Positions 1 through 2,226 of a DNA stretch of 34,308 bases are shown here, piece by piece. Source of the DNA: an uncultured Bacilli bacterium. GTDB taxonomy: Bacteria; Bacillota_I; Bacilli_A; RFN20; CAG-826. The notes under the pieces are model-generated. The model was not told the DNA's origin and did not search any database. It saw nothing but the letters and a program-made list of their open reading frames with translations. The translations under genes and the position numbers were made by a program. Every line of letters begins with the position of its first letter. The stretch's first letter is position 1. The stretch is from assembly GCA_944336335.1 (NCBI GenBank), contig CALVLC010000004.1, forward strand, positions 1 through 34,308, given 5' to 3'.

Positions 1-410
1 TTATATAAGCAGTAAGCAAAGCTCTTGATGCATCATCTTTGGATAAGCAAATAGAAGCATTATCTAATGAACTCAATGATATGAATAAAGAGTTTGAACT
101 ATTGGTTAAAATGAATACGACCACGCAGCAAGATCAAACGATTTAGTGAAAAAAGTATGCAGAACTTGAAGATATTTATAAAAACAAAGATGCAGAACTT
201 AATTCATTAGTTATGAAAAAGAACGAAATCAAACTAAAAGTTAATAAGTTTAATATCTTCATAGAAACACTTAAAAAAGGTGAACTCATTACTGATTTTG
301 ATGAAACGATATTCAATTTCAATCTAGAAAAAGCGATAGTACATAAAGATAAATCAATAACATTTAAGTTCTATAGTGGTTTTGAAACGACGAAAAAGAC
401 CGGGGAGTGA
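1..410 (+). pseudogene. C-terminal remnant of a large serine recombinase
   Basis: One frame can be read from position 9 to the TGA at 408-410 if the two adjacent stops TAG-TGA at 144-149 are ignored. It gives a glutamate/lysine-rich coiled-coil stretch, then a tail containing FIETLKKGELITDFDE and a final ITFKFYSG. This is the usual C-terminus of large serine recombinases of integrative elements: a coiled coil, an 'F...L....i.eFDe' segment, then a V..dg.itF.f.dG strand. A further stop (TAA at 6-8) lies upstream, and the catalytic N-terminal domain is not in the window. The stops and the missing 5' part make it a dead remnant. Family assignment rests only on the tail, so it is probable rather than certain. 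Confidence 0.65.
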
Positions 411-426
411 TTCCTTGGTCTTTTTT
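394..426 (+). terminator. Rho-independent terminator after the recombinase remnant
   Basis: Arms 394-405 and 413-424 pair over 12 bp (8 Watson-Crick pairs AAAAGACC/GGTCTTTT plus a GGGG/CCTT extension with two G-U pairs). The loop is 7 nt and includes the recombinase stop codon. The T-run reaches 426. It separates the remnant from the promoter that starts at 432. Confidence 0.85.
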
Positions 427-431
427 ACAAA

Positions 432-459
432 TTGAATTTTTGAATATTTTTGATATAAT
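432..459 (+). promoter_or_regulatory. Promoter of the RNA-HNH unit
   Basis: A -35 box TTGAAT (432-437), a 16-nt spacer and a perfect -10 box TATAAT (454-459) stand just after the preceding terminator. The expected transcription start is 466-467, which is the first base of the GTAAGG strand that closes the downstream RNA fold. Confidence 0.75.
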
Positions 460-466
460 TTCAAAT

Positions 467-622
467 GTAAGGAAACAAATCCTAAATCTCTTGTAAAAGA
501 GTAGATTGATAAAGTTTTCTATCAAAGCTGTAAAGAGAACTACCCTTTGAGGTATCAGCAATAGGTCGCCCTATAGTCAATCAGTGCATTTGTTAGCCTT
601 ACGAAAGGAGGTTAACTCATAG
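467..622 (+). ncRNA. Multi-branched structured RNA upstream of and partly enclosing the HNH gene
   Basis: The closing stem pairs GTAAGG (467-472) with CCTTAC (597-602), and after a 1x2 internal loop AACAAAT (474-480) with ATTTGTT (588-594), 13 bp in all. Inside are four hairpins in a row: CTCTT/AAGAG with a GTAA (GNRA) tetraloop (488-501), TTGATA/TATCAA (506-525), TACC/GGTA (541-554), and ATAGG/CCTAT with a 4-nt loop (561-574). A strong Shine-Dalgarno-like AAGGAGG follows at 605-611, but no start codon lies at normal spacing from it. The segment 605-622 can pair with 1639-1654 beyond the gene (separate entry). The class is not recognised. HEARO-type RNAs are the nearest precedent by layout. 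No group I or group II intron core was found by eye. Confidence 0.65.
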
Positions 623-1654
623 TTTTTTCTTGTTGAAAGAATTAATTATGAAAGATGAAATGATTGTTAATAAAGAAACTGCTATGCGTTTGTGGACTTC
701 TCAATATGGGAAGAAGACAAAAGCGGTCGACTTTGCTGGTCGAACAATGGCTAAATCTGCCTATGATGATCGTAACAGTGAATTTGGGTGGAATTTAGAT
801 CACATCTATCCTCAATCAAAAGGAGGAAAAACAGCTGACCATAATTTGATATGCTGCCATATCCTTACTAATGATGAGAAGGCTGATAAGATTTGCTTTA
901 ATGCTAATGGTCAATTATTTAAAGTGGTTAAGTTTCAAAATCATTATGAAATTGTTAATGAAACAAAACCAGATGATGAAGTAAAACAGCCTACTTTATT
1001 TGATTCGGCATATGGCGTTAGACGATTCAAACAGCTAATTAAAGAATCAAAAAAAGAAAAATTCTGCGGTGAAGTACTAATCGATTTAAGATTGGTCAAG
1101 ACGAGCGCTCTTTTTGATTTTATTAGAGAGGTATTCAACTCTGAAAATGTTAATATTTTTTCAAAAGACCCTAGTTATTTATCTTTATACTCTTCACAAG
1201 CTCAAAGCTATTTAGTCGTTATAAGAAGTTATGATGTTGGTTTAAAATCGCTGATTCAAGATTTGCTTGATAAATGTCTTTTAATAAATACTTACTTGAA
1301 TCACTATTTTTTGCCTAAGGAATATCTTTTTGCATTTGGTATTTATTTCGATGTAAGTTATAACGAAAATGCTGATGAATACTATAAAAATGTTAAGTTA
1401 AAAGATATGAATGCCTATTCAGGCGAACCAACTAACACTTTATATATTGGTGATTTAGTAGTAGCGAATACCGACGCAAAAGAAGATTTAGATAAGGAAA
1501 ATTCTACTTTTAGTCCATACGGATTAATGATGAGTAATAATAGAAACTTTGGTGGAAAAGAATATGTTAAATACGACTATATTTACTCTAAGTTAGCTAA
1601 AAACCTAGATAAGGAGGTAAATAGACAAGGTTAAATTTCTATGAGGACCTCCTT
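605..1654 (+). other. Long-range helix that loops out the HNH gene
   Basis: AAGGAGGT (605-612) is complementary to ACCTCCTT (1647-1654). CTCATAG (616-622) is complementary to CTATGAG (1639-1645). The two stems are continuous apart from a small internal loop (TAA at 613-615 against G1646). The 15 bp flank the HNH coding region exactly: the 3' strand starts five bases after the TAA stop (1632-1634). The helix buries the only strong Shine-Dalgarno-like sequence of the unit, so it could also control translation. The pairing is read directly from the sequence; its biological role is inference. Confidence 0.6.
648..1634 (+). CDS. HNH endonuclease, RNA-embedded, mobile-element type
   Basis: A 328-residue protein with an HNH nuclease fold near its N-terminus. 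The metal-binding Asp51-His52 is in WNLDHIYPQSKGG, Asn66 in the following ADHNL, and Asn75 in TNDEKAD, so the ββα-metal core looks complete. It is of the kind carried by Firmicutes mobile elements. Residues from about 110 onward match nothing I recognise, and there are no visible RuvC, PLMP or arginine-rich bridge motifs of IscB. ATG 648 is preferred because the conserved NKETAMRLW segment follows at once; in-frame TTG codons at 630 and 633 are alternatives. The strong AAGGAGG at 605-611 is too far upstream and is predicted to be base-paired. The gene has its own promoter and terminator and lies between remnants of an integrative element. Confidence 0.8.
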   Translation: MKDEMIVNKETAMRLWTSQYGKKTKAVDFAGRTMAKSAYDDRNSEFGWNLDHIYPQSKGGKTADHNLICCHILTNDEKADKICFNANGQLFKVVKFQNHYEIVNETKPDDEVKQPTLFDSAYGVRRFKQLIKESKKEKFCGEVLIDLRLVKTSALFDFIREVFNSENVNIFSKDPSYLSLYSSQAQSYLVVIRSYDVGLKSLIQDLLDKCLLINTYLNHYFLPKEYLFAFGIYFDVSYNENADEYYKNVKLKDMNAYSGEPTNTLYIGDLVVANTDAKEDLDKENSTFSPYGLMMSNNRNFGGKEYVKYDYIYSKLAKNLDKEVNRQG

Positions 1655-1664
1655 AAACTGAATT

Positions 1665-1693
1665 GGGTGGTGGGCGACAACCATCCTTTTTTT
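1665..1693 (+). terminator. Rho-independent terminator of the HNH unit
   Basis: GGGTGGT (1665-1671) pairs with ACCATCC (1680-1686), with one G-U pair and an 8-nt loop, and seven T follow directly (1687-1693). It comes 10 nt after the 3' strand of the long-range helix, so the transcription unit is about 1.23 kb. Confidence 0.85.
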
Positions 1694-2226
1694 ACTCTTA
1701 AAAGTTGCCGTTGTTGCCGTTGTAAGGGCGTGCAATGTATCAAAAGCGTAGTATGTAGGCAATTCCGATAGAAATCCATGTGTTTTGCAGGGTTTTTATT
1801 TATCTTTACAACAATTTACTTTTGCAGTAATTAATGTTTTCTGCATTTATTAATAATTTAAATACTCACAATAAGAAAGACATGGAGTTGTTTTTCTAAT
1901 AATAAAGTTGTAATTATTGTTGCCATATGTGAAACCTCCTTCGTCAATACACAAATAGACAACTCATAATTTCTTCAAAAGCCTAACGAAATTACGATAA
2001 TGCGTATTGCTCCCGGCGGAGTCCGTATAAGTATATCAAAGGGTTTTGGTAATCAAGGTTTATTTAAATTTAAAATATTGGACTTATGTCAAAATTAAAG
2101 AACTTATTTTTTATTTTGAAAGTTTCAAGCTTGTTAAATTACTAAAGCACTTATTAGATTTCTTGATTAATGTATTAACAAAAAATACGATTAAATACGT
2201 TTTTTATATGCATTGTCAATTAACTC
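1694..2226. other. Gene-poor scar of a mobile element
   Basis: No convincing gene is present. Parts are richer in G+C than the surroundings (1704-1800 and about 1998-2033), unlike the AT-rich flanks, which suggests imported DNA. A 9-bp tandem repeat, GTTGCCGTT twice, lies at 1704-1721. A minus-strand Shine-Dalgarno followed by a very short reading frame lies at 1858-1941 (separate entry). The G+C-rich piece near 2008-2025 contains CTCC/GGAG arms that could form a small hairpin. From about 2040 the sequence becomes AT-rich again up to the lipoprotein promoter region. Origin from the same element as the recombinase remnant is inference. Confidence 0.4.
1858..1926 (-). CDS. 22-codon reading frame with strong ribosome-binding site, possibly a truncated gene start
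   Basis: On the minus strand an AAGGAGG (complement of 1935-1941) stands 8 nt before an ATG (1924-1926). The frame starts MATIITTLLLEK and ends at TAA (1858-1860). The site is far better than chance, but the peptide has no recognised family. It may be a leader peptide or, more likely in this scar, the first codons of an element gene whose remainder was lost. Confidence 0.3.
   Translation of the reverse strand: MATIITTLLLEKQLHVFLIVSI

Follow-up and report, generated by a model that had tools for sequence, protein, structure and literature searches.

Both ends of a predicted HNH nuclease messenger may fold into one RF03112-type RNA in an accessory unit of Bacilli and Clostridia

Does the structured RNA that precedes a small HNH nuclease gene in an uncultured Bacilli bacterium serve the messenger, the nuclease, or both? 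The unit in question occupies positions 432 to 1,693 of a 34,308-nucleotide stretch of DNA (contig CALVLC010000004.1, assembly GCA_944336335.1; hereafter the window). An earlier note, made from the letters alone, had described there a promoter, a closed multi-branch RNA at 467-602, an HNH open reading frame (ORF), a terminator, and a helix joining 605-622 to 1639-1654 across the gene, and every one of these features was found at its position. The comparative evidence assembled below suggests a self-contained accessory gene whose transcript acts both as a messenger and as the structural RNA of an RNA-coupled HNH nuclease. We give this reading a probability of roughly 0.45.

An RF03112 RNA and its HNH partner

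The 5′ domain in the window (472-596) is a divergent RF03112 RNA ("Staphylococcus-1 RNA"), a family catalogued in Rfam as a small RNA. It aligns along the whole 127-position model (1-127; 74.4 bits, E 2.7e-14) and retains the consensus helices and the conserved core, with covarying P1-P4. The score lies below the gathering score of 87.7: an Rfam search of the window at the gathering threshold gave no match, and the family emerged in E-value mode and through relatives. Scores of homologous loci reach 134 bits, and relatives such as L043, L095 and L056 (127-133 bits) exceed the gathering score. As aligned here, the model covers the 5′ domain only, and lacks the pseudoknot helix, the 3′ kissing hairpin, the long-range helices and the HNH partner that are described below; the loci that we studied include no Staphylococcus member. 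Neither a description of RF03112 function nor any mention of its partnership with an HNH protein was found in a literature search that excluded the discovery paper (gkx699).

In Bacilli and Clostridia, DNA and protein searches recovered about 55 proteins homologous to the HNH protein, nearly all of them encoded directly downstream of the RNA. The unit recurs in the same genus (L002, 92% amino acid identity), elsewhere in the order (L003, 75%; L028, 82%; L029, 46%) and at about 50 more loci in Bacilli and Clostridia, mainly from gut and rumen sources. A survey for the RNA alone in 392 genomes of the phylum gave matches in seven: all six above 40 bits sit immediately 5′ of an HNH homologue, while the seventh (30 bits) falls within an unrelated gene. 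Exactly one RF03112 copy is present in 24 of 25 HNH-bearing genomes. On the strength of this survey and these copy numbers, the association can be called near-obligate and single-copy. The earlier note had asked whether homologues would lack the flanking complementarity; nearly all keep it. Three distant homologues (36-37% identical; L004-L006) lack the RNA core, and their HNH motifs are degenerate.

No relative of the unit was found in a phage collection of 50,697 records. Plasmid and phage collections together yielded one Mycoplasmopsis cynos record with both RNA and HNH gene, in which the RNA lacks the P5 kissing loop, and a search of viral contigs gave one match.

Pairing between the two ends of the transcript

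Pairing across the gene was assessed at 52 loci by comparing each locus's own 5′ and 3′ ends with 20,000 re-pairings, and by counting compensatory changes on the protein tree. The tree-based counts carry more weight, since relatedness inflates the permutation tests. A kissing helix missed in the earlier note joins the loop of hairpin P5 (561-574; loop GTCGCCC, 565-571) to the loop of the 3′ hairpin (GGGCGAC, 1672-1678). The 3′ hairpin has a stem of 1665-1671 x 1680-1686 and, with its T-run, forms the putative terminator (1665-1693). Across 47 loci the kissing helix has undergone 19 independent double changes, two single changes and one break, whereas controls with the partners slid by one or two positions gave no double changes and 17-22 breaks. 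Variants include GUCGCC/GGCGAC, GUUGCC/GGCAAC, GCCGCC/GGCGGC, GCCACC/GGUGGC, GUCACC/GGUGAC and GUCGUC/GACGAC, among others.

Within the 5′ domain, an H-type pseudoknot helix (513-541; AGTTTTC 513-519 x GAGAACT 535-541) interlocks with P4 (527-530 x 556-559). It is complete in all 52 loci, none of the 20,000 permutations was as good, and the protein tree records seven double changes and no breaks; AAUCUUC/GAGGAUU is among the variants in relatives. Long-range helix 1 (LR1) is the helix across the gene that the earlier note had proposed. Its 5′ strand (605-622; AAGGAGG 605-611 and CTCATAG 616-622) and 3′ strand (1639-1654; CTATGAG 1639-1645 and CCTCCTT 1648-1654) form 14 pairs flanking an internal loop in the window, and its own pairs beat all 20,000 re-pairings; it is perfect or near-perfect in relatives (12 bp in L070, 13 bp in L060 and 18 bp in L058). 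To these we add LR2, in which the stretch immediately upstream of the start codon (628-634, TCTTGTT) pairs with the final codons of the HNH ORF (1624-1630, GACAAGG), again better than all 20,000 re-pairings.

A tree-simulated covariation test of all pairs singled out 508-578 and 1666-1685 (E 0.017 each), the only two pairs to reach E<0.05 when unrestricted; the remainder are significant only among the proposed pairs. The kissing pair 567-1676, for example, has an E of 1.4 among about 49,000 pairs and of about 0.002 if restricted to about 75 proposed pairs. The covariation that the earlier note had called for is thus present, both in the RNA and in the long-range helices. Because pairing links the 5′ domain, the pre-AUG stretch, the final codons and the 3′ hairpin, the comparison shows both messenger ends as a single predicted fold from which the HNH frame (648-1634, 328 aa) is looped out.

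The rest of the layout lies, like these parts, on the forward strand. The RNA (467-602) is closed by P1 (467-480 x 588-602; GTAAGG/CCTTAC and AACAAAT/ATTTGTT in the window), with a covarying pair at 476-592. Inside it lie hairpin P2 (488-501; 488-492 x 497-501, covariation of 488-501) and helix P3 (504-582; 504-510 x 576-582), which covaries at 504-582 and 507-579 as well as at 508-578. A sigma-70-type promoter (432-459; -35 TTGAAT 432-437, spacer 16, -10 TATAAT 454-459) ends 7 nt upstream of the RNA, and a promoter resembling TTGACA-17-TATAAT is found 6-8 nt upstream of it in most of the 52 loci. This arrangement indicates that the unit is a transcript of its own and not an intron, and that a 5′ guide would have no place.

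The 5′ strand of LR2 can instead pair with the start region in many relatives. In L043, for instance, the pre-AUG strand has two possible partners, the start region (ATCTTTCC x GGAAAGAT) and the ORF end (CTTTCCGC x GCGGAAAG), and both kinds of pairing outscore all 20,000 re-pairings. Since they are mutually exclusive, the RNA may alternate between a closed form and an open form that can be translated, with the pre-AUG strand as a possible translation switch. A Shine-Dalgarno sequence at the usual spacing is missing in many members. In many members, too, AAGGAGGT occurs both in the 5′ leader (window 605-611) and in the final ORF codons (window 1611-1618), so that the 3′ CCTCCTT has two candidate partners. 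A stop-codon hairpin, considered as a second local alternative, found no statistical support (3541 of 20,000 permutations).

The HNH protein and its genomic setting

The window protein gives a weak HNH_4 match with motif residues DH 51-52, N66 and H71, and this profile matches 49 of 50 members. The NCBIfam Cas9d profile matches all 50 (best E 2.7e-9), Cas9 matches 20 and IscB eight; in the window protein the Cas9d match is confined to the HNH segment (residues 49-82). The N-terminal HNH is, by these profiles, predicted to be of the Cas9/IscB type. No RuvC was found by Pfam profiles among the 50 members, in agreement with the earlier note, and a PDB sequence search with the family profile gave no match. 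Two AlphaFold models (pLDDT 75.7 and 74.1) render the HNH part poorly and the C-terminal domain (~134-315) confidently. This domain comes closest to class III nucleotidyl cyclases (VIA Z 11.1-11.5 over 140-146 residues in the two models; Foldseek best E 8e-3 and 2.8e-3). PII-like ferredoxin folds also rank, and the models point to a ferredoxin/cyclase-like fold. Judged by eye in the protein alignment, its first strand does not end in a conserved Asp; the cyclase metal aspartates thus seem not to be conserved, and a role in RNA binding or oligomerisation is our guess. In a separate observation, ORFs of about 970-1290 aa occur in L010, L011, L013, L014, L015, L017-L021 and L023 (G081, G083, G085, G087, G092 and G095). 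Several match the HNH part of the window protein twice at 27-34% identity, and they apparently form a separate, larger family with repeated HNH-like parts.

The unit behaves as an accessory and probably mobile element. In one genus, at L061, it stands alone, from promoter to terminator, between fba and a trkA-like gene, which in four relatives (G698, G689, G693 and G690) are separated by short gaps only. Two further genomes have this gap filled by different single genes encoding lipoproteins with collagen-like repeats (L123 in G695 and L127 in G682). Comparison of these arrangements marks the gap as a putative insertion hotspot. The L070 unit follows recA-tRNA-Ser; the genus conserves this arrangement but not the flank downstream of the unit. 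A tRNA gene lies within about 2.5 kb in 10 of 50 loci, in every case with its 3′ end toward the unit; a search for att repeats of these tRNA genes up to 2 kb on the far side gave nothing convincing.

Four of the 52 units have direct repeats close by on either side; L003/L041 is one of them, and the repeat of another, L068, resembles a dispersed repeat. Apart from these four long-repeat loci there is no clear excess of target-site duplications. The repeats of L041 (871-926 and 3058-3113, direct, also in L003) enclose an upstream fragment together with the HNH unit. The same sequence is present as a single copy at the 3′ edge of the window unit (1689-1761) and in two copies in L003/L041, and is likely a recombination site. 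Window positions 1-410 hold a gene fragment with an in-frame stop, and a homologous fragment lies 5′ of the unit in L002 and L003; the earlier note had taken this region for recombinase debris, but an NCBIfam profile search gave no family match. Its proposal of a new RNA-associated HNH mobile element holds in part: the unit is compact, covarying, accessory and probably mobile, and its RNA is a divergent RF03112 and therefore not new. The 132 neighbouring proteins include no recurrent partner, such as an antitoxin, and only scattered defence genes, for which reason the idea of a defence island was rejected.

Competing readings of the unit

In the reading that we favour, one promoter would give one RNA that begins at the RF03112 domain and closes its ends with the HNH frame looped out. 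The HNH protein would bind this RNA, probably through its C-terminal domain, either in cis or after the RNA has been trimmed, and would then act as an RNA-dependent DNA nickase or nuclease, for defence or for its own spread. Closure of the ends onto the start region could also stop translation, and a dangerous nuclease would thereby regulate itself. We favour this reading because the RNA-HNH linkage is near-strict and usually single-copy; because the kissing loop, pseudoknot and long-range helices covary; because the HNH segment matches Cas9d, Cas9 and IscB profiles; because the RNA core is conserved beyond the needs of a simple leader; because the RNA-less homologues L004-L006 have damaged HNH motifs; because the pre-AUG strand pairs in two ways; and because HEARO and RAGATH-18 provide precedents. 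All that was initially known of HEARO was a structured RNA and its HNH ORF; it was later found to be RNA-guided (PMC9755519). RAGATH-18, from the same discovery list as RF03112, is a TnpB guide scaffold, and it too was an orphan structured RNA that co-occurs with one nuclease family, although IS607 TnpB is a RuvC nuclease and its RNA lies 3′ of the gene (PMC11061315). Ribonucleoprotein formation, nuclease activity and a role in defence or spread are all inferred.

Several points weigh against this reading. L086 retains the HNH gene without the RNA, and no RF03112 copy was found in its genome. No guide-like variable segment is visible in the RNA. Binding of the RNA by the protein is presumed, and catalysis is suggested by motif conservation. 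All findings would also fit an RNA that purely controls translation. A bolder version is rather doubtful. In it, a RuvC-less Cas9-type HNH would have as its cofactor a single fold of its own messenger ends, so that a 1.2-kb transcript would encode a mobile or defensive nuclease, assist it as cofactor and also serve as its off-switch; the nuclease would then found a new class of RNA-dependent nucleases.

The most economical rival, a translation switch without a ribonucleoprotein, is a serious contender, if somewhat less probable. Here a toxic and probably defensive HNH nuclease would be kept silent by a purely cis-acting fold-back, which removal of the 3′ end or opening of the fold would undo, and the protein would then work without RNA. 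The two alternative pairings of the pre-AUG strand, the members without a normally spaced Shine-Dalgarno sequence, and the fact that the gene stands alone between a promoter and a terminator of its own, both in tRNA-linked islands and in an otherwise empty gap, all speak for such a switch. The highly conserved 5′ core, with its pseudoknot and conserved unpaired stretches, nevertheless exceeds the needs of a fold-back, the HNH belongs to the type found in RNA-guided nucleases, and no antitoxin recurs nearby. The ends of toxin-type mRNAs of the hok/sok kind also pair and can control translation; the window unit differs in its large pseudoknotted 5′ domain, its nuclease product and the lack of a visible antisense RNA.

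That the unit is an OMEGA-like RNA-guided nuclease, with a guide within or beside the RNA, is improbable. It resembles HEARO/IscB in its Cas9-like HNH gene, whose 5′ leader contains a conserved structured RNA, and in its accessory behaviour. However, its first paired nucleotide lies 6-8 nt past the -10 box, where a 5′ guide cannot fit; its RNA is partly built from the 3′ end of the transcript and varies mostly by compensated pairing within the fold; it has one copy per genome and no RuvC profile match; and a search of window 400-1750 for RF02033 (HEARO) found nothing up to E 1. Membership of OMEGA/HEARO, which the earlier note had entertained, therefore fails on the features tested, and a functional likeness is possible.

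Still less probable is a self-splicing intron or a free-standing homing endonuclease cassette that cuts an empty site. HNH is a homing nuclease domain, group I and II introns with HNH ORFs likewise loop the ORF out of a folded RNA, and a unit lying by itself where relatives have an empty gap, together with direct repeats at four loci, would suit such a cassette. The unit is placed between and not within genes, though, with its own promoter and terminator; its insertion sites vary among loci, unlike fixed homing sites; and no group I or II intron family in Rfam matches at the window unit, which bears out the earlier note's failure to see an intron core. A group II intron D1-D4 match at L043 3093-3181 lies just 3′ of, and outside, the L043 unit. 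Chance pairing, to which AT-rich DNA with its short helices is prone, is refuted by the Rfam match and the independent compensatory changes.

The comparison thus pairs an orphan Rfam RNA with a constant protein and extends its structure by a pseudoknot, a kissing loop and 5′-3′ closure, so that its function can be tested. In two earlier cases of this kind, HEARO and RAGATH-18, the orphan RNA proved to be the guide scaffold of a programmable nuclease. An RNA-dependent HNH protein would represent a Cas9-type HNH system of very small size that lacks RuvC, and a further route by which nucleases acquired RNA; should the RNA be no more than a switch, the nuclease would be controlled by a messenger that closes on itself in an unusually elaborate way.
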